From positions 434,001-498,000 of the forward strand of contig JAHHHY010000002.1 in assembly GCA_019359125.1 (NCBI GenBank): 64,000 nt of DNA, given 5' to 3'. The position numbers were made by a program, and so were the translations under genes. Positions 39,943 to 62,333 of the stretch are shown one piece after another (within the stretch, counting starts at the first letter, position 1; every line of letters begins with the position of its first letter). Below the pieces are notes generated by a model. That model ran no database searches. It had not been told where the DNA came from and was given only the letters and a program-made list of their open reading frames with translations. The DNA comes from Pleurocapsa minor GSE-CHR-MK 17-07R (lineage in GTDB: Bacteria; Chloroflexota; Anaerolineae; Aggregatilineales; Phototrophicaceae).

Positions 39943-40003
39943 ACCATGATTGATTCCGGTGGGCCCCGCCCGCCGATGCCGCAGTTCAGGTTTCGTGACA
40001 GAC

Positions 40004-40020
40004 CGTTCGTGAAACGAACG
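40004..40020. promoter_or_regulatory. Inverted repeat upstream of the importer/glycosidase operon
   Basis: CGTTCGT (40004-40010) and ACGAACG (40014-40020) form a perfect 7-bp inverted repeat around GAA, about 112 bp upstream of ATG 40132. It is the only clear dyad in the 189-bp gap after the LacI gene. It shares the AAACG half-site sequence with the operators at 38758 and 38825 but has an odd centre, so it may bind the same repressor or another one. No convincing promoter hexamers were identified in this gap. Confidence 0.5.
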
Positions 40021-40131
40021 TAATCGCAGCAGAGAAAGGACAACTGCCGGGGATTGATTTCAGAATAATGCGCTTTATTTGATCCACCTATACAACATCC
40101 TGATTTACTTTTCGCAATAAGAGAGGCGAAA

Positions 40132-41511: not shown

Positions 41512-41548
41512 ACGGGTCTTTCTGATTCCCAGATAGTCCAGAATATGG

Positions 41549-41580
41549 CGGGGGCGTGTCTGATCACAGGCACGCCCCCG
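41549..41580 (+). promoter_or_regulatory. Strong hairpin after the binding-protein gene
   Basis: CGGGGGCGTG (41549-41558) and CACGCCCCCG (41571-41580) pair perfectly, and four more pairs (one wobble) extend the stem to 14 bp with an ATCA loop. It begins 38 bp after the binding-protein stop and has no T-tract. It is the equivalent of the hairpins at 14459, 60138 and 63327. Confidence 0.75.
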
Positions 41581-41609
41581 TATCACCCGACCTGTTAATG
41601 GGGGCTGCC

Positions 41610-43603: not shown

Positions 43604-43604
43604 T

Positions 43605-44897: not shown

Positions 44898-44913
44898 AAA
44901 AGGTAGACACGCC

Positions 44914-46242: not shown

Positions 46243-46286
46243 CACCGCAGTCTCATTTAACCGGGTAACACAGGCGGGCCGGCACG

Positions 46287-48029: not shown

Positions 48030-49064
48030 TCACGGACGCAGGGCGAGCCTGTCCACAATCTGGCCAGACGCCGCCGAGGCATACGAGCCGAATACCAGCC
48101 GCACGGTTTTCAGGTTGTCCTCGCCGCTGGTTTCGCCGCGTTCCAGGCCTTTCAGCGCCCGCGCGATGTTTAATTGGCAGGGGACGATGCTGGAATGCAC
48201 GATGTCGTAGCGCGCATCCGCCCATGCATAATGCGGCGGCACGGCGCGCCATGAACGCGTGCCCTCGTCGGTGGTCTCGCGGATCCAGTAATCCGGCCCC
48301 AGCTCCAGAAAGCCCCGGTCGCCTTCAATCTGCACATACGTCTCGGGGAAACGGTCGTGCTCGCGCTTGCTGGCGTAGCTCATCATGGCGGTGACGGTCG
48401 CGCCGTTTTCCATCGTCAAGAAACAGGTCGCCACGTCCTCGCCCTTCAGCTTCGGGTTGACCGTGCGAATGGTGGCATGCAGCGTATCCGCCTCGCCAAA
48501 TAAATAACGCGTGGTGTCGAGGATGTGGCTGCCAATATCCGTCAGGATGAACTGCTCCAGCTCCATCAGGAATGGCTGGTTCACATACAGGTCAAAGCTG
48601 TTACGATAGTCCACCACGGCGCGAAAGGCTTTGCCGATGCGCCCGCTGTCCAGCGCCGCCTTCAGCGCACGGATGGGCGTCTGGAAGCGCCAGTTTTCAT
48701 TGATGTACAGTGGGACATTGTGCTGCTGGCAGACGGCGACGAGCGCTTCGGCCTCCGCCAGGCTGGTCGCCATCGGCTTCTGGCACACGACCGCGATGCC
48801 GCGTTCGGCGGCCAGCTTCGTCAGCGGGAAATGCGTTTCCACGTTGGTGCAGATATCGACGAAATCGAGCTTTTCGCTGTCCAGCAGGCGCTCGGCATCG
48901 TCGTAGATCGCGCTCACGCCAATGTCGCGCCCGACAGCCTCAGCGCGTGACTTTGTGCGGTTGTACAGCGCCACGCATTCGACTTCGCCAGTTTCGGCCC
49001 AGCCGCCCAGTTGATAGCGCGACCAGAAGCCCGTGCCAAACAGGGCGAATTTCAGTGTGCTCAT
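48030..49064 (-). CDS. apsD: Gfo/Idh/MocA-family dehydrogenase, probable D-apiose dehydrogenase
   Basis: 344 residues from ATG 49064, overlapping the previous stop (ATGA). The Rossmann motif GTGFWSRYQ is at 10-18, the family Lys lies in VVCQKPMATS, and FILTDIGSHILDTTRYLFGE carries the Asp and His usually involved in catalysis. The stretches FWxxYQL and GSHILDTxRxLFGEA resemble ApsD enzymes that oxidise D-apiose to D-apionolactone with NAD. The gene is the last of an operon that also carries likely ApnL, ApnO, OiaK and OiaX, which strengthens the call. Other Gfo/Idh sugar dehydrogenases remain possible. Confidence 0.72.
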   Translation of the reverse strand: MSTLKFALFGTGFWSRYQLGGWAETGEVECVALYNRTKSRAEAVGRDIGVSAIYDDAERLLDSEKLDFVDICTNVETHFPLTKLAAERGIAVVCQKPMATSLAEAEALVAVCQQHNVPLYINENWRFQTPIRALKAALDSGRIGKAFRAVVDYRNSFDLYVNQPFLMELEQFILTDIGSHILDTTRYLFGEADTLHATIRTVNPKLKGEDVATCFLTMENGATVTAMMSYASKREHDRFPETYVQIEGDRGFLELGPDYWIRETTDEGTRSWRAVPPHYAWADARYDIVHSSIVPCQLNIARALKGLERGETSGEDNLKTVRLVFGSYASAASGQIVDRLALRP

Positions 49065-49888
49065 TGTGCATCGTCCTTTATCAGCCCGCGCAGATACGCG
49101 GTGCTTTCGCGTGCCCAGCGTTGTTCTTTGGCGGCGGTTTCGTCGGTGGTGGCTTCGGGCGCGGGCCACGCCTCGATGATCGCGTTGAAGTCGCGGCCGT
49201 GCTGTGCCAGCTCGCCCAGCAGCCACGGCATGTCCAGCATGCCCTGTCCGGCTGGCGCGCCAAATACGGTGAAGCCCATATTGTGCGCGGCGCGGCGCAC
49301 CACAAATTCCTTCACATGCAGGTTGACGACATACGGCCCCAGCGCGGCCACCACGACTTCCGGCCCTTCCAGCGCGCCGAACGAATTGACCGTGTCCAGG
49401 CAGATGCCGACGTGCGCGTGATCGATGCGCGCCAGCAATTCGACCAGCTCGCGTGACTTGAAGCGGTCGTGATTCTCAATCGCCAGCGTGACGCCCGCAC
49501 GCTCGTAGTCGGGCATGACCTCCCGGATCAGTCCCGCTGCTTCAGGGACCGACGGGTGGTGGTCGGCGGTGTCCAGCACCACGCGCACGATGGGCGATGC
49601 GAACGTCTTCGCATAGTCCAGATACAGACGCAGATGATCGGGCGCGATGCCGCGCGTGCCCACTTCCACCGCGATGTTCAGCGCTGCTGCCTTGTCACGT
49701 AGCTCGCGCAACGTCTCGGCGCCCAGCGTGTGCAGCGGCAGGTTATCGGCCAGCTGCACCACGCAAAGGCCCAGCTCGTGCGCGAAATTCAGCACATCGA
49801 ACGCGGTCCACGCCTGTGACGGGGCCGAGAAGCCCGGCACGCCGATCGACCATGCCAGCGCGTAGCTGCCCAGCCCCAGGCGCATCAT
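49061..49888 (-). CDS. TIM-barrel sugar isomerase/epimerase-like protein (AP_endonuc_2 fold)
   Basis: 275 residues from ATG 49888, overlapping the previous stop as TAATG. The xylose-isomerase-like barrel is shown by VVQLADNLPLH, the Glu of TLAIENHDRF, the Asp of GICLDTVNSF, the His of VNLHVKEFVV and the Glu of NAIIEAW, a spaced set of metal ligands. In the apiose setting two roles are conceivable: an isomerase for the sugar, or 3-oxo-isoapionate decarboxylase (OiaC), which as I recall belongs to this fold and would give L-erythrulose. Neither can be chosen from sequence alone. Confidence 0.72.
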   Translation of the reverse strand: MMRLGLGSYALAWSIGVPGFSAPSQAWTAFDVLNFAHELGLCVVQLADNLPLHTLGAETLRELRDKAAALNIAVEVGTRGIAPDHLRLYLDYAKTFASPIVRVVLDTADHHPSVPEAAGLIREVMPDYERAGVTLAIENHDRFKSRELVELLARIDHAHVGICLDTVNSFGALEGPEVVVAALGPYVVNLHVKEFVVRRAAHNMGFTVFGAPAGQGMLDMPWLLGELAQHGRDFNAIIEAWPAPEATTDETAAKEQRWARESTAYLRGLIKDDAQ

Positions 49889-50952
49889 TAAATCGCGACT
49901 CCCAGCAGGTGTTTGCCAATGGCGCGCAGCTTTGCATCCGGCCCGACAAATGCCCACAGGACATACTGGTCTTCGGTGTGTGTGCGGCCGGTGGCCCCGC
50001 CGATGGCCTGGCCGCTCGTTTCCAGCTCGCCGAAGATGCCATACTGTCCGCCGTCGTTATAGACATGAATCGAGTAGCCGTTAACGCCCACTTCGTCCGG
50101 CGGTTCCTCGGTGTATTCGGCCGAAGGATTGTTCGAGAACTGGCGCACCAGCAGGCTGGACTGGCCATCGCCCAGCGGGCGCAGATAGGCCAGTCGGTTG
50201 CCGACGCTGGCGGCTTTATAGCCCACCTTGTACTGGCGCATGCCGGTGATGGTCTGGCGGACGGCACCATCGCGCACAGTCCGTGATTCTTCGGTCGCGC
50301 TGCCGAAATACTCGGCCGTCTCCAGCAGGTCAGACGCAGGGATAATCATCTGGCCGCCGGGAGGAAGCTGAATCAGGTTCCAGCTTTCAGCCACATGCTG
50401 CGTATGCTCCATCTGCGCCAGCGTGAAGGTATGGGTGACACCCGCATAGGCCACACCATCCAGCATTGCGGCCCCGGCGCTGAGCAAACGCAGCGGATTG
50501 GCCGCCGGGCGAATCGTATGATGACAGCGCAGATACGCCTCGCCCTCGGCGATGTTATAGGCGCGCAGCTGGATTTCCTGGCTGAACGACACGCCGTGCT
50601 CGTCCTCACGCATGGTGTAGAAGCCGGGATCCATCGCTTCGGGCACGCGCTGGCTGGCGGTGCCCTGCGCGCGGTCGGTGAAAATGTACTGGATTTCCGG
50701 CGCGATCCAGAAGCGTTCGCCGCCGATATTCCACGCGCGCACAGCCTGAAGCTCGCTGGCGAAAGCCGCCGCGCTGTTCATGGCGGTCGGCGTCCAGTAC
50801 AGATTTTCGGGGTCCTCACCAGGCGGAAACAGCCCCAGGATGCGCGAACCGTAGCGCGTAATCAGCGCCTGAAAACCCGAATCTAGCGGCAGGATGTGAT
50901 AAGCCTCCCCCGCACCTTCCAGCGTAGCAACCAGCGTCTTCAAAGTGGCCAT
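49888..50952 (-). CDS. Aldose-epimerase-like beta-sandwich protein of uncertain function
   Basis: 354 residues with no signal peptide. The pattern of short beta strands with scattered conserved His (CHHTIRP near 143, HVAESWNLIQLP) and the opening ALITRYGSRILGLFP, GERFWIAPE resembles the galactose-mutarotase-like superfamily, in the group of uncharacterised DUF members that contain GGERFWIAPE. Such folds bind carbohydrates and may catalyse anomer or ring conversion. Its position between ApnO and the TIM-barrel protein, with overlapping ends, suggests a role on apiose, a sugar whose furanose ring forms need interconversion. No direct evidence of activity. Confidence 0.6.
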   Translation of the reverse strand: MATLKTLVATLEGAGEAYHILPLDSGFQALITRYGSRILGLFPPGEDPENLYWTPTAMNSAAAFASELQAVRAWNIGGERFWIAPEIQYIFTDRAQGTASQRVPEAMDPGFYTMREDEHGVSFSQEIQLRAYNIAEGEAYLRCHHTIRPAANPLRLLSAGAAMLDGVAYAGVTHTFTLAQMEHTQHVAESWNLIQLPPGGQMIIPASDLLETAEYFGSATEESRTVRDGAVRQTITGMRQYKVGYKAASVGNRLAYLRPLGDGQSSLLVRQFSNNPSAEYTEEPPDEVGVNGYSIHVYNDGGQYGIFGELETSGQAIGGATGRTHTEDQYVLWAFVGPDAKLRAIGKHLLGVAI

Positions 50953-50970
50953 GCGTGTCTTCCTTCTGCC

Positions 50971-51816
50971 TTACTTCAGGCTGTCGGTGATTTCCGCCAC
51001 GCTGTGCTTAAGCGCATCCAGATTCATGATGCGTTCTTTCCAGTCGGGCAGGAAAATATTCGGATACGCGTTCTTGATGGCCAGCTTGGCACCATCGGAG
51101 AACGGGAATCCTGCAAACCCGAAGATAATAGCCAGCTCAATGCGAATATGCCCAAACAGGAATTCGCGCGCGGCTTCTTCCGGCACGCCCATCTCGACCG
51201 CGATATCCAGCGCCTCTTTGATGGCGGTGATGACGGTGGCGGCAAAGGTTTCCACCAGCGCGGGCTCCAGGATGGCCATCTGCTCGACGGTGATGCGATA
51301 CGAATTCATGACCGGCGCGTACATGGCGCGGGCGATGGCCTCGCCTTTGGCGTAGTCCTCATCCGGCCCGTGATAGAGCGCGCACACGATGTGCTGCTTG
51401 GCCTTCACCCCGCCGAACCAGTCGGTGCGGGCGGACTCTTCCACTTCATCATTAAACAGTGGCGGATGGCATGGATGCGAGATGAAATAGGTCAGGTCGT
51501 TGCGTACGGGGATGACCTCGGCATATGACGCGGCCGGATCGAGCCCGATCACCATCGCACCCGGCCTGATCAGCTCGATGATCTCGTTGGTGATGCGGCC
51601 GATCAGCTTGTCGGGGATGGCCAGGATGACGGCATCGGCGGTGGCCAGCGCCTCGTCGCGCGGGGTGGGGCTGACGCCACGTTTGCCCAGGTTTTCGATG
51701 CCCTGCGGCGAGACCTCCACGTACATCATGTCAAATTCGGGCAGGTCCTTCATATTATCCGTGATGCGCGACCCCATCTTGCCGCCCGCACCCATCAACG
51801 CGATTCTGGTTGCCAT
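50971..51816 (-). CDS. apnO: Probable D-apionate oxidoisomerase (ApnO)
   Basis: 281 residues. The N-terminal Rossmann domain has the dinucleotide motif GAGGKMG at 9-15. The C-terminal helical domain matches the phosphogluconate-dehydrogenase-type C-terminal family found in ApnO. The segments SHPCHPPLFNDEV and TVEQMAILEPALVETFAATV are typical. ApnO oxidises D-apionate and shifts a carbon group to give 3-oxo-isoapionate with NAD. Directly upstream is the likely OiaK kinase, which uses that product, after a 54-bp gap, the largest within the enzyme part of the operon. Confidence 0.78.
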   Translation of the reverse strand: MATRIALMGAGGKMGSRITDNMKDLPEFDMMYVEVSPQGIENLGKRGVSPTPRDEALATADAVILAIPDKLIGRITNEIIELIRPGAMVIGLDPAASYAEVIPVRNDLTYFISHPCHPPLFNDEVEESARTDWFGGVKAKQHIVCALYHGPDEDYAKGEAIARAMYAPVMNSYRITVEQMAILEPALVETFAATVITAIKEALDIAVEMGVPEEAAREFLFGHIRIELAIIFGFAGFPFSDGAKLAIKNAYPNIFLPDWKERIMNLDALKHSVAEITDSLK

Positions 51817-51870
51817 GATTTTTACCCTTTGCCATTCATCAGATGTCAGCGTGTGAAACTGCTGTCTTGT

Positions 51871-53235
51871 CTACAACCGGCCGCGCAGCACGCTGCCGAA
51901 GTAATCGGCGCGCCCCACCTGGCCAGCCTTCAGTGATATTTCCAGCCCTTCAAAATCGGCATCATACGCGCGGGCCCGGCACAACGGCGCGCCCGGCGCC
52001 AGCGGCAGGATCGTCTCCAGCGCGTAAATGCCAAGCTGCTGCGCGGCGTGTCCGCAGGTGTCGCCGCCGGTCACGATGGCGCGGCGGATGCCCGTGCGCT
52101 GCACAATCTCGCGCAGGATGCGTCCCTGCTGCGCGCCCAGCAGCGGGCTGACGCTGGCCGTATTCAGGCCGCGCTCGGCCAGGCTGGCGCGCGTCTCGGC
52201 AATGGCTGGGTCATCTGGCCCCCAGGCCGAGAACAATACCGGAGACTTGCCCTGCGCCAGGATATCGCAGGCCAGCGCCACCATCGCTTCGCGTTCGGCA
52301 TCGGCGCTGGCCTCGTCAATCAGGCGCAGCGTATTCAGCCGATGCACCTGAAAGCCGTTCTGCTCTGCCCAGGCGAGTTGTGCCGCGGTCCCCGGTGCCG
52401 CGCTGCCGCTGACTACGACGATCTGATCGACGGGCAGCACCGATGCCGGAGCCGCCGTTGGCCCTGCCAGGCCAGATGCACGCCAGTGCGCCGCCAGCGC
52501 ATATTCCACGCCGGACGAGCCGATCACGAACGGGCAGTCGCCCGACGACGCCTGCTGCCACAGGAACTCGCCCAGCGTGAGCAAATCGCTTTCGCTGAGC
52601 GTATCCAGCACGATAATCTGCGCGCCGCCGGCCATCTGCTCATGCCATGCCGCACTTACAGCATCCGGGCCGCGCTGAATCGTCAGCCAGTCCACCAGGC
52701 CCATACGGCGCGACGTTTGCCGGCCCAGATGCACGCGCAGGTCTGCCTCGTGCATGGGCGTGACCGGGTGCTTTGGCATGGTGGGATGGCGGTCCAGCCG
52801 GTACGTCACCCCATTCACCCCGGCAAACAGATTGCCGAACGCGACATATCGTTTGAGGATGGGTGCGCCGACCAGCAGCGGCACAGCCCTGGGCCGAAAA
52901 TGCGCCCAGCCGATGTCCGCCGCCGCGCCGATGCTGCCAATCTCAGGCGACGAGTCGAAGGTGGAACAAACTTTATAGTGAAACAGCGTGGCGCCCAGCG
53001 CGGCCAGCTTTTCAAACTGCCCCGGCAGGGCAGCTTGAAGCTCAGCCGTCTTCAGCGACCGGCTGATACCCGCCACCCCCACGGCGCGGGCATGCGGGAA
53101 ATGCGCGCGCACAAAGTCAGGGGTGGGTGGTTCCAGAAAAAGGACGGCAGGGATGCCGTTCCAGGTCAGGGCCTCGGTGACATCCGTGGACCCTGTGAAG
53201 TCGTCTCCGTAAAAGGTGAGCAGCAGGTCGCTCAT
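51871..53235 (-). CDS. oiaK: Four-carbon acid sugar kinase family (DUF1537), probable 3-oxo-isoapionate kinase
   Basis: 454 residues from ATG 53235, overlapping the RuBisCO-like stop (ATGA). The N-terminal substrate domain begins with FYGDDFTGSTDV (residues about 7-18), and the C-terminal ATP-binding domain has VVSGSAAPGTAAQL and TGGDTCGHAAQQL. This family phosphorylates acid sugars such as erythronate, threonate and 3-oxo-isoapionate. The placement between a RuBisCO-like protein and ApnO is the arrangement expected of OiaK, which makes 3-oxo-isoapionate 4-phosphate. Family certain, substrate inferred from the neighbours. Confidence 0.8.
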   Translation of the reverse strand: MSDLLLTFYGDDFTGSTDVTEALTWNGIPAVLFLEPPTPDFVRAHFPHARAVGVAGISRSLKTAELQAALPGQFEKLAALGATLFHYKVCSTFDSSPEIGSIGAAADIGWAHFRPRAVPLLVGAPILKRYVAFGNLFAGVNGVTYRLDRHPTMPKHPVTPMHEADLRVHLGRQTSRRMGLVDWLTIQRGPDAVSAAWHEQMAGGAQIIVLDTLSESDLLTLGEFLWQQASSGDCPFVIGSSGVEYALAAHWRASGLAGPTAAPASVLPVDQIVVVSGSAAPGTAAQLAWAEQNGFQVHRLNTLRLIDEASADAEREAMVALACDILAQGKSPVLFSAWGPDDPAIAETRASLAERGLNTASVSPLLGAQQGRILREIVQRTGIRRAIVTGGDTCGHAAQQLGIYALETILPLAPGAPLCRARAYDADFEGLEISLKAGQVGRADYFGSVLRGRL

Positions 53236-54518
53236 GCGCCACCGCCCGCAAATCCGGACAGCGCGGCCGCCAGCGCCGGATGCGCCGCCGCATGCTGCGC
53301 CAGCGGGATGCCCTGTATAGCAGCAGACCAGGCCTCGCGCACGCTCTCCACCCCGGCGGCGATGCCCATCGGGTGGCCGATGATGCCGCCGCCGCACAGA
53401 TACAGGCAGTCGGCGCTACCCAGCGCCTGATAGGTGTCGGCGGCCTGCGCGGCTGTCTGGCCCGAAGAAAAGACGGGCATGACGGTGTAGCCGCCCAGCA
53501 GCGGCGTCAGGCATTCGCGGGCCGACGCGACCACGCTCTCGTCAGACTCGCAGAACTTGTTGCGGATGCCGTTGACGTGCAGGTGATCGATGCCTGCCAG
53601 ACGGAAAAATTTCTGAAAGGCGATGTAGCCCATGCCCAGCGCGGGCGCACGTGTGACCATGCCCCAGCCGGCGCGGTGGCCATGGATGGGAAGCCCGGCA
53701 TGGCGCGCCAGCTCGGTTACGCCGGCCAGCCCGACCGCCAGCATATTGACCATGATGCAGGTGCCACCAGCCGCCAGCACGGCATCGTGGCCGCGCTTCA
53801 TCTCGTCCAGGTCGCCAGTCACGTTAAACGCATACATTGGCTTGCGGCCTGTGCGCTCGGCATAGGCATTGATGACGCCCATGACCGCGTCCACGCGTTC
53901 GCTCAGCCGATTATGCGGTGAGTCCGTTTGCAACTCATCGTCTTTGATGAAGTCGAGCCCGGCCTCGATCAGCGTGCTGACCAGCGCGGCCGTTTGTTCG
54001 GGCGAGAAGCCCACGCTGGGCTTGATGATCGTGCCGATCAGCGGCCGGTCCTGCACGCCGGATAATTCGCGCGTGCCTGCGACGCCAAATTTCCCGCCCG
54101 GATACCTGCCCGCAAAGGGCGTGGGAATCTCGATATCGAGCAGGCGCAGGCCGGAAAATGGCGACAGCTCGAACAGGTTGCCAGCCACCGTTGTCCACAG
54201 CGTCGAGAGCGAGGCGCCGATATTCTCGAACGGCCACGACAATACGACTTCCGCCTGTGAATAAACCGGCTGTGCCGTGCCTTTGGGCAGGCGTGAGCCG
54301 GGCAGGCTGGGCGACGGAACTGTGCCCAGCACCTCGATTGATTCGACCTGCGCGCCATGACGCGCCTGTAATTCCGGGGTTTCGCCGGGAATTTTGACAA
54401 ACGTCCCGCTCGACTGCTCGCCCGCCATCATCTCGACAGCCTTGCGGACGTCGTGTGCGGTTTCGACGAAATACAGCGCGCGGATGCGTCCGTCGGCGCG
54501 GGGAATCAGCCTAGCCAT
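53232..54518 (-). CDS. oiaX: RuBisCO-like protein, probable 3-oxo-isoapionate-4-phosphate transcarboxylase/hydrolase
   Basis: 428 residues from ATG 54518, overlapping the lactonase stop by 8 bp (ATGGCTAG). It has the two-domain RuBisCO large-subunit fold. Active-site counterparts retained are Lys166 (IIKPSVG), carbamate Lys192 with metal ligands Asp194 and Glu195 (FIKDDE), His281 (GHRAGWG), His314, Lys321 in the loop-6 position (NGIRNKF), Ser352 and the phosphate-binding GGG at 376-378. OiaX members use this chemistry to cleave 3-oxo-isoapionate 4-phosphate to 3-phosphoglycerate and glycolate. Adjacent kinase and lactonase genes support OiaX over methionine-salvage RuBisCO-like types. No small-subunit or phosphoribulokinase gene is present. 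Confidence 0.8.
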   Translation of the reverse strand: MARLIPRADGRIRALYFVETAHDVRKAVEMMAGEQSSGTFVKIPGETPELQARHGAQVESIEVLGTVPSPSLPGSRLPKGTAQPVYSQAEVVLSWPFENIGASLSTLWTTVAGNLFELSPFSGLRLLDIEIPTPFAGRYPGGKFGVAGTRELSGVQDRPLIGTIIKPSVGFSPEQTAALVSTLIEAGLDFIKDDELQTDSPHNRLSERVDAVMGVINAYAERTGRKPMYAFNVTGDLDEMKRGHDAVLAAGGTCIMVNMLAVGLAGVTELARHAGLPIHGHRAGWGMVTRAPALGMGYIAFQKFFRLAGIDHLHVNGIRNKFCESDESVVASARECLTPLLGGYTVMPVFSSGQTAAQAADTYQALGSADCLYLCGGGIIGHPMGIAAGVESVREAWSAAIQGIPLAQHAAAHPALAAALSGFAGGGA

Positions 54519-56334
54519 TGGATTGCCCATCCGCGATGACGACGGCATACGGCTCCAGCGTGGTCTCCAGGAAGCCGGGGATGCGCACGTCCACATAGTC
54601 ATTGATGAAATTGGCCAGCATGATGCGCATGCTGCCGCCGCGTTCCAGCACCAGCCCGACCGCCCGCAGCGGCGCGCTGGAGCGCATGACGCGGATCGTG
54701 CCCCCGGCAAATTCATTGACCGAGCGCAGCACGTCAAACAGCGGGTATGGCTGGCCCGGCTCGCTGGGGAACAACGCGGGCAAAGGCGAGCCGGTTTCGC
54801 GTTCCATCACACCCAGCCAGCCCGTCAATTCGTAGTAGGTGATGGCCGACGCGCCAGCTTCGGCCAGATGCTTGATGCTGCCCAGCGTCCAGGCTGCGCC
54901 AAACTGTGACAACTGGCGCGTATCCACCTGGCGCGGAAGCTGGCCGGGCGGCGTGGGCGGATCGTCGGACGTGGCGTTTGGGTTCCAGCGGATATGCAGC
55001 GTGACCGGCGAGACGACGACCGGCTTTCCGGTGAATGCCGCCGCGCTGCGCACGGTATCACCCTGCGTTTGCAGCGTCTCCACCAGCGAAGCATTGTCGA
55101 AGGCATGCACCTGCGGATTGACGCTGTAGGCGACGAAATCCAGCCCGGAGGCGTCTGGCCGATGGCGGTTCAGCTCGGTGAAGTAGCCGTTGGTGCCGCT
55201 GCCGACGGGCACCTGAAAGCGCGACAGCACATTGCGCGCCTTATTTACCAGCGCGGCGGGCGTCCCCGGGCTGCTGGCCTTGAAGATCAACCAGGCATCC
55301 AGCGGCGGATCCTGCTCATGCGTCCAGTCGGCGACGCGGCCCAGCTCGGCGTCGGCATCATCGGTCAGATGCAGCGCGACCAGCAGGCCACTGTCCAGCG
55401 CGCGCGCCTGCGAGGCGGCCTGCGCGTAGCGGGCATGGGCGTCCGGCGCAGCAGGATGCAGGTCGAGGCGCAGATGGGCCGGTCGCAGCGTGCGCAGCGT
55501 GGCAGCTTCGCTGAGGGTGATCGGCGCGCCATCGGCATTGACGCACAGGCCGATGCGCGGCACCGGGACCGTCGCGCCGGTCACCGTCATGACCACCTGC
55601 GCATCGTCATCGTCGTCAGAGGTGACTGAAGGCGCGTCCGGGGGCATGACCGCGCTGATCGTGACGACCTGGCGGATGCGCGTCCCGGCGGCGATCATGC
55701 GCGGGTAGGGCAGTGCCAGCGGCGTGCAGTAGGTCTTGAACGAAGCATCGGTCCAGTTGCGCTGGTCTTCAGTCTCGAACGTGTCGCCTTCCATCGTCAC
55801 AGTGACGCGCGCGCCGTTTGCCGTTTCATGGGTGATGGCGCGCACATCGAAAAATGGCTGATGGGGCATGATGTCTGCCGGAAAGCCTGCCTCCTCGGAT
55901 GCGCCGTCTGTGTGCAGGATGGTGCAGGGCTGGCCAGCTATGTCCCCGGGATGCAGCACGCAAAAGCCGACGCGGTTGGCCCGGAAATCAGACTTCGCCT
56001 CGCCGTCAAAGATGAACGTGAGCGTGTTGTCGCGGCTGGAGCCGATGATTTCGCCGTGCCAGACGAAATGCACGTCCCCGGAGCGATGCGTGCTGGTGTA
56101 GGCATAGCGCACGCCGTCATCCGATTGTTCCAGATCGATATCCGTCAGCTCGCCGGGGATGGTCGACCAGTTGTGGTCGCGCACGGCGGCATACACCTGG
56201 CGCACCGCTTCGATGCCCCCGGCCTGAATGGTGCGCAGGGCGCCCGCTTCGATGCGCGCAGTCAGCGCGCCGGCGCGAATCCGAATGCTGGCGGGATCGT
56301 CGTGCCCGCCGTTTAGCATAAAACTGTGGCTCAT
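54511..56334 (-). CDS. apnL: Probable D-apionate lactonase (ApnL)
   Basis: 607 residues, close to the size I recall for ApnL. The N-terminal beta-rich part (1-240) contains VRQVYAAVRDHNWSTIPGEL, NRVGFCVLHP, FPADIMPHQPFFD and TEDQRNWTDASFKTYCTPL, stretches I associate with this family. The C-terminal part is barrel-like (DFVAYSVNPQVHAFD, TYYELTGW). There is no signal peptide, so it acts in the cytoplasm. ApnL hydrolyses D-apionolactone, made by ApsD, to D-apionate. Its ATG overlaps the stop of the permease gene, tying the transporter and catabolic genes together. Assignment rests on remembered motifs plus context. Confidence 0.68.
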   Translation of the reverse strand: MSHSFMLNGGHDDPASIRIRAGALTARIEAGALRTIQAGGIEAVRQVYAAVRDHNWSTIPGELTDIDLEQSDDGVRYAYTSTHRSGDVHFVWHGEIIGSSRDNTLTFIFDGEAKSDFRANRVGFCVLHPGDIAGQPCTILHTDGASEEAGFPADIMPHQPFFDVRAITHETANGARVTVTMEGDTFETEDQRNWTDASFKTYCTPLALPYPRMIAAGTRIRQVVTISAVMPPDAPSVTSDDDDDAQVVMTVTGATVPVPRIGLCVNADGAPITLSEAATLRTLRPAHLRLDLHPAAPDAHARYAQAASQARALDSGLLVALHLTDDADAELGRVADWTHEQDPPLDAWLIFKASSPGTPAALVNKARNVLSRFQVPVGSGTNGYFTELNRHRPDASGLDFVAYSVNPQVHAFDNASLVETLQTQGDTVRSAAAFTGKPVVVSPVTLHIRWNPNATSDDPPTPPGQLPRQVDTRQLSQFGAAWTLGSIKHLAEAGASAITYYELTGWLGVMERETGSPLPALFPSEPGQPYPLFDVLRSVNEFAGGTIRVMRSSAPLRAVGLVLERGGSMRIMLANFINDYVDVRIPGFLETTLEPYAVVIADGQSNG

Positions 56335-57329
56335 GATGGTGTTTGGGTCTCTACAGGCCGAATAAAGCGACGCTTGAGCTTCTTCATATTTGCGTCGCGC
56401 AGGCTGTCGAAAAAGATCGCCAGGAAGATGATCACGCCTTTGATCATCGGCTGCAGGTAGAGATTAACATTGTTGAACACCAGACCAAGCTGCACCATCT
56501 GAATCAGGAGTGCGCCCAGCACTGCGCCGAACACATTGCCGACACCCCCGAACAGGCTGGTGCCGCCCAGCACGGCCGCGGCGATGGCGTCGAATTCGCG
56601 CCCCTCGGCAAACGACCGGTCGAGCCTGCCCAGCTGGGAAATCAGGATGAAGCCTGCCAGTCCGGCGCAAAAGCCGCTGATGATGTACACGCGGGCGATC
56701 ACCCAGTTGGTGCGGATACCGGCCTTTTTGGCCGCTTCAGGGTCGTTGCCCACCGCGTAAATCTGCCGTCCGAACTGCGTCCGCGTGAGGATGACCCATG
56801 CCGCGGCGATGACCAGCGCGAATACGATAATCGGCATGGGGATGCCGACAAGCTGGATCTGCCCGAACGACAGCATCGACTGCGGAAAGTCGACCTGCTG
56901 CGACTGCGTGAAGGCTGTGCCCAGGCCGCGCCCGATCACGAGCGTGCTCAGCGTGACCATGAACGGTATGATCTTCAGCCTGACGATGACGAACGCGTTG
57001 AATGCGCCGTACAGCGTGCCGACGGCGACGGCCACCAGCAGGCCTTCCACCACGCCGATGCCAAGCTGGCGCATCAGCAGGCCGGCCACCACCGATGACA
57101 GGTACATATTCGAACCGACCGAGAGGTCGATGCCGGCTGTGAGCAGCACGAATGTCATGCCCACCGCGATGATGCCCGTGAACGAGGCCTGTTTGACGAT
57201 ATTGGTGATGCTTTCCAGCGACAGGAAGCGCGGCGACTGGATGCCGAAATACACAAACAGCACGATAAACAGCACGATGGTCGAGTTGTTCAGCAGCAGC
57301 GTGCGCAGGTTGATAGTGCGTCGTTTCAT
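56331..57329 (-). CDS. Ribose-type ABC transporter permease (CUT2)
   Basis: 332 residues with about nine or ten hydrophobic segments, beginning IVLFIVLFVYFGIQ. The RbsC-family motifs are present: GMTFVLLTAGIDLSVGS near 57-73, VGNDPEAAKKAGI, and GTSLFGGVGNVFGAVLGALL. It forms half of the channel for a monosaccharide, probably apiose or apionate. The stop of the ATPase gene overlaps its start, and its own stop overlaps the lactonase. A second permease gene lies upstream of the ATPase, so the pore may be a heterodimer, unlike the RbsC homodimer. Confidence 0.92.
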   Translation of the reverse strand: MKRRTINLRTLLLNNSTIVLFIVLFVYFGIQSPRFLSLESITNIVKQASFTGIIAVGMTFVLLTAGIDLSVGSNMYLSSVVAGLLMRQLGIGVVEGLLVAVAVGTLYGAFNAFVIVRLKIIPFMVTLSTLVIGRGLGTAFTQSQQVDFPQSMLSFGQIQLVGIPMPIIVFALVIAAAWVILTRTQFGRQIYAVGNDPEAAKKAGIRTNWVIARVYIISGFCAGLAGFILISQLGRLDRSFAEGREFDAIAAAVLGGTSLFGGVGNVFGAVLGALLIQMVQLGLVFNNVNLYLQPMIKGVIIFLAIFFDSLRDANMKKLKRRFIRPVETQTPS

Positions 57330-58882
57330 GACGATTGCTCCGTTTCGCCGGAGTGCGGGTGCAGCGGCGCATGTTCGCGGAAGGCCGCCCGCAGGATGGC
57401 CTCGTCCGAGAAGGCCTCGCGGGCGAACTGGGCCACGATTTCGCCCTGGCTCATGACCAGGATGCGGTCGCAGGTGCCCATCAGCTCTTCCAGCTCGGAC
57501 GAAATAAACAGCACGCCGCTTCCGGCTGCTGCCAGCCGATCCATGATGGCGTAGATTTCATACTTCGCGCCCACGTCGATGCCGCGCGTCGGCTCGTCCA
57601 TGATGAAAACTTCCGGCTGAGACAGCAACCACTTGGCGATGACGACCTTCTGCTGGTTGCCACCGCTCAGGCTTTTGGCCGGCTGGACACTGATATCCGC
57701 GGCTTTTAGCTGAAGCGCCTGCGAGGCTTCGCGGGCGGCCTCGCGCATGGCCCCGGCGTCCAGAATCTGCAGGGCGGTGCGCGCAAATTCAGGCAGTGCC
57801 ACCAGCGTCACGTTGTCGGCGATGGCGATATTCATCAGCAGGCCTTCTTCGCGCCGGTTTTCGGTGACGAAAGCGATTTTGCTGCGGATCGAGTCGCGCG
57901 CGCTGGACCCTTTCAGGGCTTCGCCAGCCACGCGAATCTCGCCCTGTTCGGTGCGGTCGAGGCCGAAAATCATGCGCGCCAGCTCGGTGCGTCCGGAGCC
58001 CATCAGGCCGAACAGGCCGACCAGCTCGCCGCGGTGCACAGTCAGGTTGACCTTCTCGACGATGCCCGCGGCCGAGATGCCTTTCAACTCCAGCAGGGGC
58101 GTCGTCGTGGGGGCAGACGTGCGCGTGGGATACAACTGCTCGATGCTGCGGCCGACCATCAGCGAAATCATGCGTCGCGTGTCGAATGCGTCGCGCGCTT
58201 CCTGCGTGACAAGCTGGCCGTCGCGCATCACCGCGATCGAGTCGGCCAGCCGCAGCACATCGTTGAGGATATGCGAGATGTAGATCATCGACTTGCCTTG
58301 TTCGCGCAGGCGCAGCATGATGTTAAAAAGCTGCTCTGTCTCGCGGGCGGTCAGCGATGTCGTGGGCTCATCAAAGATGATGAGCGACGCATCCATATAA
58401 AGTGCTTTTGCGATTTCCACCAGTTGGCGCTCGCCGGGTGACATGCGCTCGATCTGGAAATCAGGCGGTGTATCCAGGCCCACCTGGTCGAGCAGTTCCC
58501 GGGTGCGCGCCTTCATCGCCGCACGGTCGATAAATTTGAACGGGCCGAAGCCGGTGCGCGGGAACCCGCTGATGAATACGTTTTCGGCAATGGTCATGTT
58601 GGTGAACAGGTTTAGCTCCTGATGGATGAAGCCGATACCCGCGTCGTTGGCATCCGCCGGGCGGCGCGGCGCATAGGGCTTGCCGCGAAAGGTCATGCTG
58701 CCCGCGTCAGGATGCACCACGCCGCCGACCAGGTTCATCAGCGTGGACTTGCCTGCGCCGTTCTGGCCGATCAGCCCCAGGATTTCGCCTTCTTTCACGT
58801 CGATGCTGACATCGCGCACCGCCGGCACGCCGAAGAATGCTTTGGAAATATGCTCAATAGTGAGGATGGTTGAGCGTGTCAT
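57326..58882 (-). CDS. Ribose-type ABC transporter ATPase with two nucleotide-binding domains (RbsA-like)
   Basis: 518 residues. The first domain has Walker A GQNGAGKST (37-45), signature MSPGERQ and Walker B IIFDEPTTSL. The second has the usual degenerate Walker A GLMGSGRTEL, signature LSGGNQQK and Walker B FIMDEPTRGIDVGAK. This asymmetry is normal for CUT2 ATPases. It powers the importer formed with the two flanking permeases. Only a few bases separate it from the upstream permease gene. Confidence 0.95.
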   Translation of the reverse strand: MTRSTILTIEHISKAFFGVPAVRDVSIDVKEGEILGLIGQNGAGKSTLMNLVGGVVHPDAGSMTFRGKPYAPRRPADANDAGIGFIHQELNLFTNMTIAENVFISGFPRTGFGPFKFIDRAAMKARTRELLDQVGLDTPPDFQIERMSPGERQLVEIAKALYMDASLIIFDEPTTSLTARETEQLFNIMLRLREQGKSMIYISHILNDVLRLADSIAVMRDGQLVTQEARDAFDTRRMISLMVGRSIEQLYPTRTSAPTTTPLLELKGISAAGIVEKVNLTVHRGELVGLFGLMGSGRTELARMIFGLDRTEQGEIRVAGEALKGSSARDSIRSKIAFVTENRREEGLLMNIAIADNVTLVALPEFARTALQILDAGAMREAAREASQALQLKAADISVQPAKSLSGGNQQKVVIAKWLLSQPEVFIMDEPTRGIDVGAKYEIYAIMDRLAAAGSGVLFISSELEELMGTCDRILVMSQGEIVAQFAREAFSDEAILRAAFREHAPLHPHSGETEQSS

Positions 58883-58885
58883 GGC

Positions 58886-60118
58886 TCAGGCCCCCCGGTT
58901 CAGGATGCGCGTGCGGGTGATGTCCAGCAGCGCGGCGATCAGGATGATGCCGCCCTTGACCGCATCGATGATAAAGGGAGACAACTGCATCGCGTTGAGG
59001 ATGTTCAGCAGCAGCACGAAAAATGCCACACCGAACAGGGTGCCTTTGACCGTGCCCTTGCCGCCAAACAGACTGGTGCCGCCGATGACGGCCGCGCCGA
59101 TCACATCCAGCAGGATGTTGCCGCTGCCCAGCGAGGGCTGGCCGATGCCCAGGCGCGCCGAATACAGGATGGAGGCGACCGCCGCGCAGAAGCCGCTGAA
59201 CATGTACACCATGATGATGACGCGCTGGCTGGGCACGCCGGATATCGTGGAGGCGCGCCGGTTGGTGCCGACGCTGTACATCTGGCGGCCGAACGACGTG
59301 CGCGTGAGCAGGAAATGGGCCAGCACCGCCAGCCCGAGCGAAATCAGCGCGGGGTAGGTAATCAGCGGCAGCACGTCACGCCGGGCGATGTCCGGGTTCA
59401 GCTTCGGCCCCAGAAAGATCGAGATGATGTCGCCGTTGCCCAGCAGCAGGAACGGCTCCGGCAGGTTGGCCACATTGCGCGACTGCGTCAGCCACAGCGC
59501 GAAGGCCGCGAAGATGGTCGATGAGACAAGCGTGACCATGAACGGCGCCAGGTTGAAGCGCGTGATCATCGTGCCATTCAGCCAGCCGATCAGCAGGCCC
59601 AGCAGCAGCATGACGACGACAGCCACGGCCCAGCCGTTCGGGTCCTGGCCCAGAATGCCGCCTGACTCGCTGATCAGCGTGCCCCACAGCGGGCTTTTGT
59701 CATAGGTGGAGGCATCGAGCGCGGTGGACATGACCAGCCCGCCGATCGTGCTAGTGATCGCCATGGTCGCGCCCTGCGACAGGTCGATGCCGCCCAGGAT
59801 GAGCACAAAGGTCTGGCCGATGGCGATTGCCAGCAGCGGCCACATATTCAGCAGTTGGTTGGTGATATTGCGCGGGGCCGACAGTGTGGTGAAGAAAATA
59901 CTGGCGACCACGAAAAAAATGATTGTCAGGTAAAGGATAAAATTCTCACTGAGCAGCGCGCGCCTGAAAAAGGCGCCGACAGCCTGCGACGGGGTGCGCT
60001 GATCCCGCCGCTTTGGGGAAATACTTTTCAGCAGCGGGCCCGATGGGTCTTCTGCTGCGCCTGGTCGTTCATCGCGTTGAATCGTCGTGGACACCGGATC
60101 ATGCCTCGTGCGTGCCAT
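58886..60118 (-). CDS. Ribose-type ABC transporter permease (CUT2)
   Basis: 410 residues from ATG 60118; ATG 60151 is in frame but lies inside a strong hairpin, so the downstream start is favoured despite its modest GAGG site. A polar, charged N-terminus of about 55 residues precedes the membrane part. RbsC motifs: GQTFVLILGGIDLSQGATM, VGTNRRASTISGVPSQRV and GTSLFGGKGTVKGTLFG. It is longer than the other permease because of the cytoplasmic tail and a larger loop near TGGILGQDP-like sequence (SGGILGQDPNG). It probably pairs with the permease at 56331. Confidence 0.9.
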   Translation of the reverse strand: MARTRHDPVSTTIQRDERPGAAEDPSGPLLKSISPKRRDQRTPSQAVGAFFRRALLSENFILYLTIIFFVVASIFFTTLSAPRNITNQLLNMWPLLAIAIGQTFVLILGGIDLSQGATMAITSTIGGLVMSTALDASTYDKSPLWGTLISESGGILGQDPNGWAVAVVVMLLLGLLIGWLNGTMITRFNLAPFMVTLVSSTIFAAFALWLTQSRNVANLPEPFLLLGNGDIISIFLGPKLNPDIARRDVLPLITYPALISLGLAVLAHFLLTRTSFGRQMYSVGTNRRASTISGVPSQRVIIMVYMFSGFCAAVASILYSARLGIGQPSLGSGNILLDVIGAAVIGGTSLFGGKGTVKGTLFGVAFFVLLLNILNAMQLSPFIIDAVKGGIILIAALLDITRTRILNRGA

Positions 60119-60137
60119 GAGTGTACAGCCTCGCTTC

Positions 60138-60168
60138 CTGCCTCCGGACATTGTATCTCCGGAGGCAG
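60138..60168 (-). promoter_or_regulatory. Strong hairpin between binding-protein and permease genes
   Basis: CTGCCTCCGGA (60138-60148) pairs perfectly with TCCGGAGGCAG (60158-60168), an 11-bp stem with a 9-base loop. It follows the binding-protein stop (60201) by 32 bp. With no T-tract, it should act as an mRNA-stabilising or partly terminating element that favours binding-protein expression. The stem also covers the GGAG ribosome site of the alternative permease start at 60151. Confidence 0.8.
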
Positions 60169-60200
60169 AATGCGAAACCAGAACAGCTGTTTACCGGGAA

Positions 60201-61238
60201 CTACTGATCCAGGAAGCCGTCGTCGTAGAGCACGCAGCCCCACATGTCGCTGCGGTCAAAGTAGATGTTGCCAGCCGTCAGCGCGAAGCCGGGGTCCAGC
60301 AGCACTTCATTCGGCGCGGTCTCGCCAGCTTCGATGGCATCCAGCAGGCTGGTCATCGTCATTTCGGCTTCCAGGTACAGGTCCTGCACGCCGGTGGCAT
60401 CGACATAGCCCTGGTCGATCAGCATACAGGCGGTGGCGTCACCGTCCAGGCCAGCCAGCAGCACATGGCCGGGCGTGCCGGCAGGCTGCCACATGCCACG
60501 CGGCTCCAGCACCGAGCGGATGGTGGGGAACAGGAAGTCCGACGAGGTGAAGATGAAGTCCACGTTCGGATTGGCGGTGATGGCGGCTTCCAGGTTCGCC
60601 AGCGCGGTGGCGGCGTCCCATTCGGTGGCCACTTCGATCGGGGCATTGAACAGGCCGGGATAGCGTTCGTTGTAGCGGTTGATGACGTTGAAGAAACCGT
60701 CGCGGCGGCCAATGGCGTTGGTGTCCTGCAGCGCGCCCACCAGGATGAGCGGGGTGATCGGCTCACCAGTGATTTCGTACTGGCGCAGCGCCTTCTGGGC
60801 GATGAACTCGACAGCCTGTTCGGTCGCGCTGACATTGTCGGCCACCGCGATCAGGCCGGCGGAACGATCGTTCGGCGGGCGGTTGAACACGGCAATCGGC
60901 ACATCGTTGGACTGGGCTTCGGCCACGATCGTGTTGGCGCTGTCACCGTCCTGGGGGATGATGATGATGCCATCCACGCCCTGGGCGATGCATTCGCGGA
61001 TCTGCTCCAGCTGGCGGTTGGGGTCTTCGTTGGCGTTGTATTCCAGCACTTCGATGCCCTGGCCGCGCAGTGTCTCGGTGATGGCGCGGTGACCGGCCAC
61101 CCAGAATTCCGTCTCCAGGTCCTGGAAGCCGAAACAAATCGTAATGTCGGACTGCGCAGCGACGCCCGCCGCGCCCGAAATCGTGAGCAGGGCGGCTGCG
61201 CCTGCGCCGACACTCAGTTTACGAAGATTTTTGAACAT
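60201..61238 (-). CDS. Ribose-type ABC transporter substrate-binding protein
   Basis: 345 residues from ATG 61238 (GGAGG about 9 bp upstream). Signal peptide MFKNLRKLSVGAGAAALLTI ends in GVAAQ near 26-30, with no lipobox cysteine. The mature chain is a type-1 periplasmic-binding domain: CIAQGVDGIIIIPQDGD and VLLAGLDGDATA are the standard hinge-side elements. It is the first gene of the minus-strand operon and defines its uptake specificity, probably D-apiose or D-apionate given the enzymes. A GntR-type operator lies about 146 bp upstream. Confidence 0.93.
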   Translation of the reverse strand: MFKNLRKLSVGAGAAALLTISGAAGVAAQSDITICFGFQDLETEFWVAGHRAITETLRGQGIEVLEYNANEDPNRQLEQIRECIAQGVDGIIIIPQDGDSANTIVAEAQSNDVPIAVFNRPPNDRSAGLIAVADNVSATEQAVEFIAQKALRQYEITGEPITPLILVGALQDTNAIGRRDGFFNVINRYNERYPGLFNAPIEVATEWDAATALANLEAAITANPNVDFIFTSSDFLFPTIRSVLEPRGMWQPAGTPGHVLLAGLDGDATACMLIDQGYVDATGVQDLYLEAEMTMTSLLDAIEAGETAPNEVLLDPGFALTAGNIYFDRSDMWGCVLYDDGFLDQ

Positions 61239-61383: not shown

Positions 61384-61399
61384 ATATTGTATACAATAT
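61384..61399. promoter_or_regulatory. GntR/FCD-type operator upstream of the apiose operon
   Basis: ATATTGTATACAATAT is a perfect 16-bp palindrome in the gap between the GntR gene and the binding-protein gene. Its core TTGTATACAA fits the TnGTnnnACnA pattern of FadR/FCD-type GntR regulators. A second copy of the 12-bp core lies at 62132-62143. Location upstream of the transport/catabolic operon indicates that the adjacent regulator controls it. Confidence 0.8.
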
Positions 61400-61417: not shown

Positions 61418-62092
61418 TCACTTTCTCAGATAGGTCACTGCATACATGCATTCGCCCGCGACACGGGCGTTGATGCGCCGGTTCTCAGCGCGCACCGCGT
61501 CGATGGAGCGGCTGCGGTACGCCTCGATAATCTTGCCGTGGTCGCGCATCGCCAGTTGTTCATCATAGTCGGCGATGGCTTCCGCGCGGATGTAGAGCAC
61601 GGCGGCCACCTGGGCCACGATTTCCTCCCAGCTGCGCATCAGCATCGGGTGGCCGGTGCTGCTGATCAGGTACTGGTGAAAGGCCATGTCGGTGCTGCGC
61701 ACGCGCTTGAAGTCCCTGGCGATCACCCACTGCCGCTGTTCTTCCACCAGCCGTTCCAGCTCGGCGTAGTCACCTTCCTGAAACCGATTGATGTTGAGTT
61801 CTGCCGCGAAGTTCTCCAGCGTGGTGCGCATCGAGAACAGCGCCTCCACGTCGGACTCGTTGAAGGCGCGCACGAAGCATCCCCGGTTGGGGTGGGCGAT
61901 CACGAGTGCCTCGCGTTCCAGCAGGATAAATGCCTCGCGGACAGGCGTGCGGCTGACGCCAAGCTGTTTGGTGAGGGCGGCTTCTGTGATATGGTCATTG
62001 GGCTTCAGGCGTCCCTCGATGATGGCAGTCCTGATCTGGTCGGCCACCTGCTCGCGAAGGGTTTGTGCCTGAATCTGCCTGAAAACATTCAT
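61418..62092 (-). CDS. GntR-family regulator with FCD domain
   Basis: 224 residues. The winged helix-turn-helix spans about 10-75 (LREQVADQIRTAIIEGRL through TKQLGVSRTPVREAF). The all-helical FCD ligand domain follows to 215, with Asp and His residues (DMAFHQYL, DHGKIIEAY, RRINAR) that usually hold a metal and an organic acid. Ligands in this family are often sugar acids, so apionate or another pathway acid is a fair candidate. Palindromes on both sides suggest that it regulates itself, the minus-strand apiose operon and possibly the plus-strand importer at 62334. Confidence 0.92.
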   Translation of the reverse strand: MNVFRQIQAQTLREQVADQIRTAIIEGRLKPNDHITEAALTKQLGVSRTPVREAFILLEREALVIAHPNRGCFVRAFNESDVEALFSMRTTLENFAAELNINRFQEGDYAELERLVEEQRQWVIARDFKRVRSTDMAFHQYLISSTGHPMLMRSWEEIVAQVAAVLYIRAEAIADYDEQLAMRDHGKIIEAYRSRSIDAVRAENRRINARVAGECMYAVTYLRK

Positions 62093-62131: not shown

Positions 62132-62143
62132 ATTGTATACAAT
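62132..62143. promoter_or_regulatory. Second GntR/FCD-type operator
   Basis: ATTGTATACAAT, the 12-bp core of the site at 61384-61399, lies 40-51 bp upstream of the GntR start codon and 190 bp upstream of the next binding-protein gene. It can serve autoregulation and perhaps control of the divergent importer. The rest of the 241-bp gap holds no other feature that I could identify. Confidence 0.78.
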
Positions 62144-62333
62144 ATACTGCCGACCGCTACAAACTGATGCGGATTGGCTGCAATCTTTATGCACTATGAC
62201 TAATTTGTCGGCTGGATAACGCGCCAAATCGGGCGATATGTTGGCAAATACCGCGTCCTGAGCGACAATCAGGGGTCTCAAAGCGCAAATGATTTGTACA
62301 GGCAAAATAGTTTCGTGTGAAGGGAATTCCAAT

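Follow-up and report, generated by a model that had tools for sequence, protein, structure and literature searches.

D-Apiose occurs in pectin (rhamnogalacturonan II, RG-II) as well as in many plant glycosides; the bacteria in which its breakdown was elucidated are cultured Proteobacteria. Carter et al. 2018 reportedly described an oxidative D-apiose pathway with a RuBisCO-like protein (RLP), the transcarboxylase/hydrolase OiaX. According to a review, 3-oxo-isoapionate 4-phosphate is decarboxylated by the RLP of Agrobacterium radiobacter K84 but transcarboxylated and hydrolysed by that of Xanthobacter autotrophicus (PMC6302742), and growth on D-apiose is reported for Rhodobacteraceae strain LCG007 (PMC11747546). 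In papers that name both Chloroflexota and apiose, the apiose passages describe no such operon from Chloroflexota; they deal with form IV RuBisCO in general terms or consist of a reference. Here we analyze a stretch of 64,000 nucleotides of the 4.85 Mb genome of Pleurocapsa minor GSE-CHR-MK 17-07R, placed in Chloroflexota (G000:C5:434001-498000, hereafter the window), which carries what is probably a catabolic operon for D-apiose, or for its lactone or acid, under the control of a GntR regulator. Gene content, protein families and conservation are read from the sequences, and the reactions are those which these families would be expected to catalyze. The locus would thus place a complete, probably self-regulated apiose unit in the Chloroflexota.

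In the proposed scheme, a ribose-type ATP-binding cassette (ABC) importer would take up apiose, and a DUF6786 protein would probably accelerate the interconversion of its ring forms. ApsD would then oxidize apiose to apionolactone, ApnL would open the lactone ring to give apionate, and ApnO would convert apionate by oxidation and rearrangement to 3-oxo-isoapionate, which OiaK would phosphorylate. The RLP, which has most of the RuBisCO active site, would finally catalyze a carboxyl shift followed by hydrolysis to 3-phosphoglycerate and glycolate. The GntR protein, bound to the palindrome ATTGTATACAAT before its own gene and before the gene of the sugar-binding protein (SBP), would keep both repressed until an intermediate appears.

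Operon structure, enzyme families and regulator

The operon comprises eleven minus-strand genes spanning 61238 down to 48030, in the 5' to 3' order SBP, permease, ATPase, permease, ApnL-like, RLP, DUF1537 kinase, PGDH_C, DUF6786, AP_endonuc_2 and Gfo/Idh/MocA, and starts with the ATG of the SBP gene, which has GGAGG upstream. Six of the ten junctions overlap (by 4, 4, 8, 4, 1 and 4 bases) and the remaining four have gaps of 49, 3, 54 and 18 bases, the largest therefore being 54 bases; this bears out the initial annotation, in which eleven genes with mostly overlapping ends had been described. The importer and five enzymes that it listed were also recovered by family, but it had left the DUF6786 and TIM-barrel genes unnamed and had omitted the co-directional GntR gene (61418-62092). 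Scans for consensus promoters (4 found, 3.5 expected) and terminators (14 found, 11.3 expected) were uninformative. Relatives of the RLP were confirmed in 258 stretches of genome_contigs; counts over 80 loci given here refer to the best 80 of the 258 (50-69% identity), of which 52 have more than 8 kb on both sides, and counts of neighbors are lower bounds. The operon genes recur, partly reordered, in three of these loci, L028, L029 and L031 (L031 without the Gfo gene, where the locus ends), and with this recurrence the eleven-gene grouping is more than chance.

A fit of the five enzymes to the oxidative D-apiose/D-apionate pathway is supported at family level, from which their substrates and activities may be predicted. 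The ApnL-like protein of 607 aa had a sole NCBIfam match, NF049900 (D-apionate lactonase; 357 bits, E 2e-106, positions 5-592 of 595), and no Pfam match. The best NCBIfam model for the RLP was NF042437 (OiaX) with 447 bits, followed by rubisco_III with 236 and MtnW-type models with 172 and 126, and that for the kinase was NF042436 (OiaK) with 511 bits, followed by 3-oxo-tetronate kinase with 205 and D-threonate kinase with 49; on these values a methionine-salvage role of the RLP and a threonate/3-oxo-tetronate role of the kinase were rejected. Among solved structures, the RLP was closest to 3nwr (401 bits vs 208 for the second). The ApnO-like protein, whose NCBIfam matches include no ApnO model, was closest to 5t57 (251 bits, with 3c24 close at 232), and the ApsD-like Gfo protein to 5uhw (262 bits vs 80 for the runner-up). 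We take 5t57 and 5uhw to be the assayed ApnO and ApsD, respectively; 5t57 matches, with full identity over 276 residues, a protein encoded next to an RLP and a kinase on plasmid pBB1 of Cupriavidus necator N-1, and 5uhw matched the Gfo gene of a rhizobial operon (L116, from Rhizobium sp. N1314) with 634 bits. With these two presumed identities, all five enzymes had their best match in the families proposed by the initial annotation, which had looked for at least four of the five. The outcome that it had named as contrary, with the closest relatives in threonate, erythronate or methionine-salvage clades, was not observed, the OiaK and OiaX models being far ahead.

The firmest new result concerns regulation. 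ATTGTATACAAT lies on either side of gntR, before that gene and before the SBP gene. Up to one mismatch, two copies occur in the window vs 0.02 expected, and there are three exact copies in the 4.85 Mb genome vs none of the reversed control. A GntR homologue (58-64% identical) is encoded in L028, L029, L031 and L032, and each of these four Chloroflexota-type RLP loci contains ATTGTATACAAT with at most one mismatch (2, 2, 3 and 3 copies, respectively) near the start of gntR, SBP or ApnL; the SBP-upstream site is also found in L028, L029 and, with one mismatch, L031. In L031 and L032, where the longest open frame includes the gntR sites, these sites still precede the start codon predicted by the length of the window protein. 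None of the five Chloroflexota-type loci without a GntR homologue (L025, L026, L027, L030 and L033, some of them short) contains ATTGTATACAAT, and it occurs only twice in 1.25 Mb of the remaining 71 RLP loci. In L028 and L029 the site before gntR overlaps a promoter, read by eye as TTGACA-17-TACAAT, which suggests repression. The GntR-ATTGTATACAAT pair thus probably ties the twelve genes into one regulon, with ATTGTATACAAT as the predicted operator and with a mode of action and an effector that we infer, and the operon is probably self-regulated by its own GntR.

Distribution, type of the RuBisCO-like protein and competing readings

Homologues of the kinase were found in 69 of the 80 RLP loci, those of ApnO in 47, of ApnL in 27 and of Gfo in 24; RLP, kinase and ApnO coincide in 41 and all five in 17. 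The titles of these loci cover Chloroflexota, Bacteroidota, Bacillota, Pseudomonadota, Acidobacteriota, Verrucomicrobiota, Deinococcota, Armatimonadota and Haloarchaea. Among 400 genomes of the window's phylum, NF042437 exceeded 400 bits in three (G000, G365 and G273) and the ApnL family was matched in 18. By these counts and this spread of titles, the pathway is uncommon in the phylum, yet neither peculiar to the window's genome nor restricted to Proteobacteria. The closest relatives of the operon proteins are titled Chloroflexi/Anaerolineae. The initial annotation had considered the packing into one transcript striking and the known examples mainly proteobacterial; this did not hold up, as RLP relatives span many phyla and L116 has importer and enzymes in one co-directional run, so that such packing is not unusual. 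The RLPs of G365 (L023) and G273 (L024), from the same phylum, were placed near Armatimonadota/rhizobial rows and among proteobacterial rows of the tree described below, and are perhaps separate gains in the phylum. In seven Paenibacillus/Cohnella loci (L063, L064, L068, L071, L080, L083 and L086), the RLP and a DUF1537 kinase occur with no ApnO, ApnL or Gfo homologue found nearby; other substrates probably enter through the RLP branch as well. On a Croceibacterium plasmid (L115, 1-19197), RLP and kinase are surrounded by many glycosidase genes and a gene for a TonB-dependent receptor, and the whole resembles a utilization locus for pectin (RG-II).

The RLP/RuBisCO tree comprised 118 rows (116 distinct) and was built by a quick method with SH-aLRT support only; rows L125, L124 and L128 are long and their placement is unsure, and the window's own loci (L001, L002 and L004), L003, L105-L107 and matches below 100 bits or 330 residues were left out. 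The window RLP belongs to a set of ten rows (support 95), with eight others titled Chloroflexota plus L029, which is labelled Bacteroidetes. The operon of L029 is nearly the same as that of the Chloroflexi locus L028, and L029 is probably misbinned. Eight plasmid rows, L116-L120, L126, L127 and L129, form a separate rhizobial group (support 100, stem 0.82), six of them named OiaX by NCBI and two without name. NF042437 itself is titled "3-oxo-isoapionate-4-phosphate decarboxylase OiaX", a label carried by the plasmid records L116-L120 and L129; the symbol OiaX presumably belongs to the transcarboxylase/hydrolase, so that this name would mix two enzymes.

Residues are given in what we take to be spinach RuBisCO numbering, with conserved motifs as anchors. 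In RuBisCO, the carboxylation/phosphate site includes E60, N123 and H327. They are kept in 11 of 11 RuBisCOs and in all 94 family rows outside the rhizobial group (the window included; 92 distinct), and are replaced by D, G and Q in all eight rows of that group, while K175, K201, D203, E204, H294, R295 and K334 are common to RuBisCOs, the rhizobial group and the remaining family rows. The window RLP retains E60, T65, N123, K175, K201, D203, E204, H294, R295, H327, K334, G403 and G404, and the decarboxylase-type pattern D60, G123, Q327 is not present in it. It differs from RuBisCO by K177S, H298W and G380S; with these changes and its position outside the 11 RuBisCO rows, RuBisCO proper was rejected. 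In five more distant RLPs of the window's phylum, R295 and H327 are absent in every case. From its name, from the K84 enzyme as described in PMC6302742 and from L116, we infer that the rhizobial group consists of decarboxylases. For the window RLP the residues favor a transcarboxylase/hydrolase, with 3-phosphoglycerate and glycolate as products, over a decarboxylase; it is read as OiaX type because transcarboxylation and hydrolysis would repeat RuBisCO chemistry, whereas plain decarboxylation needs less.

Neighboring genes give some indication of the product. In L116, genes for triose-phosphate isomerase (TPI) and RpiB directly follow the kinase, which is what a decarboxylase route would need. 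Neither TPI nor RpiB (LerI/DerI-type isomerase) is found among the twelve genes of the window unit, and in the 80 RLP loci TPI was found in none (two probes) and RpiB in one (one probe). Close to some related RLP/kinase pairs are genes that point to 3-phosphoglycerate, namely pyruvate kinase and enolase in Haloterrigena (L113, 8995-15777), pyruvate kinase in Bradyrhizobium elkanii (L114, 8986-16994) and pyruvate kinase in Rhodococcus (L125, 5853-20531, an unsure row of the tree). In L125, genes for glycerate kinase and D-glycerate dehydrogenase also lie at a distance of 7-9 kb.

A number of observations weigh against the proposed scheme. The scores with NF049900, NF042437 and NF042436 are all under the equivalog cut-offs of 750, 700 and 700, respectively, although none of the 400 genomes of the phylum reached the cut-off of NF042437 or that of NF049900, so that the OiaX and ApnL models look narrow. 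The residue rule depends on one stem (a single clade) with no repeated pattern, and the tree sample lacks both characterized RLPs, those of A. radiobacter K84 and X. autotrophicus. The argument from TPI and RpiB is thin, as the two genes were seen in only one of the eight rhizobial-group loci (L116). With pyruvate kinase present at no more than 3 of the 12 plasmid loci that lie outside the rhizobial group and detected at none of the 80 genome_contigs loci (two probes), pyruvate kinase/enolase was rejected as a general neighbor of window-type RLPs. The SBP is only distantly like solved SBPs (at best 62 bits with 2ioy and 58 bits with 4ry0/5ibq), and the search for its ligand among them led nowhere. 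The DUF6786 and TIM-barrel genes would have no place in a five-step scheme. Use of the glycolate is also left unexplained, since malate synthase (PF01274) had no match in the genome, the glyoxylate-carboligase model was matched with 361 bits, well short of its cut-off of 711, and the single glcD match was under cut-off as well (364 of 568). A GlcDEF-type glycolate oxidase was rejected, the glcD match standing alone with four neighboring open reading frames (ORFs) that show no such family; glycolate may be excreted or consumed by another route.

Alternatively, the operon could be an oxidative apiose operon whose RLP is a decarboxylase (OiaC type), with the TIM barrel, or the TPI and RpiB of the genome, taking the C4 product to erythrose 4-phosphate. 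The top-scoring NCBIfam model for the RLP bears a decarboxylase name, the genome holds one TPI and one RpiB (both on other contigs), an epimerase/isomerase-like TIM barrel lies within the operon, and malate synthase and an over-cut-off glyoxylate carboligase were not found in the genome. We nevertheless regard a decarboxylase as unlikely, given that window-type RLPs retain the three residues altered in all eight rhizobial-group rows, that TPI and RpiB are almost never found by the probe search at RLP loci and that the pyruvate kinase and enolase genes near some related pairs indicate 3-phosphoglycerate. Less probable again is a main substrate other than apiose, such as another branched or C4-C5 aldose or sugar acid passing via a 3-oxo acid. 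Such a substrate would agree with an SBP without close solved relative, with identities of just 33-47% to the rhizobial operon L116 and with RLP and kinase pairs that have no ApnL, ApnO or Gfo nearby (as in Paenibacillus/Cohnella), which may mean that the RLP branch serves other entries; against it, 17 of the 80 loci, from several phyla, combine ApsD-, ApnL- and ApnO-type genes with those of RLP and kinase, and each has its best match in the named pathway family or structure. As the DUF1537 and RuBisCO-like families include threonate/erythronate kinases and methionine-salvage RLPs, two such genes could also have been joined by chance, but this is highly improbable when the OiaK model is ahead of 3-oxo-tetronate kinase by 306 bits and of D-threonate kinase by 463, the OiaX model scores 274 and 321 bits more than the MtnW-type models, R295 and H327 set the window RLP apart from the five others sampled in the phylum, and a kinase homologue accompanies the RLP in 69 of 80 loci.

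Importer, accessory genes and neighborhood

The features of the regulon are compiled in Table 1. The window SBP shares 78-83% identity with the SBPs of L028, L029 and L031 and is predicted to bind D-apiose or a related compound, which we consider probable.

Table 1. Genes of the predicted apiose regulon and its candidate operators, with positions in the window.
Feature	Position	Strand	Basis
GntR-family (FCD) regulator of the operon, probably repressor	61418..62092	-	Pfam GntR + FCD
Probable operator ATTGTATACAAT upstream of gntR	62132..62143	strandless	motif count, recurrence in relatives
Probable operator ATTGTATACAAT upstream of SBP gene	61386..61397	strandless	motif count, recurrence in relatives
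Sugar-binding protein, ribose/CUT2 type	60201..61238	-	Pfam Peripla_BP_4
ABC permease 1	58886..60151	-	Pfam BPD_transp_2
ABC ATPase, two ABC_tran stretches	57326..58882	-	Pfam
ABC permease 2	56331..57329	-	Pfam BPD_transp_2
ApnL-like D-apionolactonase, 607 aa	54511..56334	-	NCBIfam NF049900
RuBisCO-like protein, OiaX type, putative 3-oxo-isoapionate-4-phosphate transcarboxylase/hydrolase	53232..54518	-	NF042437; Pfam RuBisCO_large
OiaK-like 3-oxo-isoapionate kinase, DUF1537 (SBD_N + NBD_C)	51871..53235	-	NF042436; Pfam
ApnO-like D-apionate oxidoisomerase, PGDH_C	50971..51816	-	Pfam PF16896; 5t57
DUF6786 protein, aldose-1-epimerase (mutarotase)-like fold, putative role	49888..50952	-	Pfam PF20583; predicted model
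Xylose-isomerase-like TIM barrel, epimerase-like, AP_endonuc_2	49061..49888	-	Pfam PF01261; predicted model
ApsD-like D-apiose dehydrogenase, GFO_IDH_MocA	48030..49064	-	Pfam; 5uhw

Two genes of the operon have no counterpart in the five steps. DUF6786 homologues (41-46% identical) were found in three of the 80 RLP loci, L028, L029 and L031. The predicted model of the window protein is fair only (pLDDT 69); six of its best seven Foldseek matches are aldose-1-epimerases/mutarotases (E 4e-6 to 4e-5, TM 0.44-0.46, rmsd 6-9 Å) and the seventh is a chain of a photosynthetic supercomplex. The simplest role suggested by this model is probably that of a ring-form mutarotase for apiose. The TIM barrel is present in ten of the 80 loci, titled Chloroflexota, Deinococcota, Bacteroidota or plain bacterium, and E138, D165, H191 and E239, which we take to be the metal ligands of D-tagatose-3-epimerase-like barrels, are invariant in 11 of 11 sequences. 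Its predicted model (pLDDT 92) has D-tagatose 3-epimerase and Art22 as best folds. Among relatives with 33-39% identity, those of Pantoea and Erwinia adjoin genes for a DHAK-type kinase, TPI and PGDH_C, and four more are near a split transketolase, in Salipiger, Shinella, Paracoccus and Rhizobium CC-CFT758, with a DHAK-type gene near the barrel in the first three and none listed in Rhizobium CC-CFT758; a Roseibium relative has genes for a TRAP transporter and an aldose epimerase as neighbors. By its context the Pantoea-type barrel could decarboxylate 3-oxo-isoapionate. In a tree of 20 rows the Chloroflexota, Bacteroidota, transketolase-context and Pantoea/Erwinia barrels form separate groups, with no resolved order between them. 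A tentative extension, which we rate as possible and no higher, is that the Chloroflexota have a form of the pathway of their own, longer than the one described, in which DUF6786 is a dedicated apiose mutarotase, the TIM barrel a second, metal-dependent branch enzyme and the RLP of a type ancestral to the rhizobial decarboxylases. If true, 3-oxo-isoapionate may meet either of two fates within a single operon, or another branched sugar may have its own entry there, and the RLP would represent the natural carboxyl-transferring type that gave rise to the rhizobial decarboxylases when E60, N123 and H327 were lost.

Other genes in the neighborhood include a second ribose-type ABC set on the plus strand, divergent from gntR (window 62289-63290 and L140 349-5250, in G000:C5:497000-508000), with ATPase, permease, TrpA-like protein and FGGY kinase, which shares its intergenic region with one ATTGTATACAAT site. 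The third exact palindrome of the genome (G000:C10:50199-50210; L144 6200) is intergenic and upstream of a minus-strand ORF. On the plus strand and convergent to the operon, the window contains a cluster at 38935-47543 with a LacI regulator, SBP_bac_1 and two BPD_transp_1 genes (CUT1-type ABC), a 435-aa protein without Pfam match, a GH1 glycosidase and a GH2/GH5-like protein. Speculatively, this cluster could free sugars from plant glycosides, perhaps apiosides.

Comparison with known systems

If the assignment of the window RLP is correct, the window type is suggested to be the widespread form of the enzyme and the NCBI-named "OiaX" proteins a small side branch in which the active site has changed. 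Residues 60, 123 and 327 would then be a simple rule that may separate transcarboxylase/hydrolase from decarboxylase, and the database name calls for caution. Two uncharacterized enzyme families would also be tied to the apiose pathway.

The cluster of strain LCG007 shares ApnL, ApsD, ApnO, OiaK and an RLP with the window, but its RLP is annotated as a decarboxylase and the strain is alphaproteobacterial (PMC11747546). C. necator N-1 pBB1 (L134) is alike in encoding ApnO followed by an RLP (57% identical to that of the window) and a DUF1537 kinase (46%). It differs in that a probe search over 14 kb found neither ApnL nor Gfo nor a CUT2 importer and in a 488-aa unannotated ORF ahead of apnO. 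L116 of Rhizobium sp. N1314 has all five enzyme families (the ApnL-like protein being annotated as "hypothetical protein") and a ribose-type importer, as in the window, whereas its RLP is only 43% identical and has D60, G123 and Q327. It further differs in the TPI and RpiB genes adjoining the RLP unit, a DUF2291 gene, a single permease gene and a NanR-type GntR with 26% identity to that of the window, and homologues of the TIM barrel and DUF6786 were not found there. The system of Carter et al. 2018 is said to group an ABC importer with ApsD, ApnL, ApnO, OiaK and the RLP, an arrangement like that of the window; the window differs by its place in the Chloroflexota, a GntR of another lineage and two extra conserved genes. 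The operon is well supported as a further example of the known oxidative apiose pathway, to which it adds a new regulator-operator pair, another importer lineage and two conserved extra enzymes.

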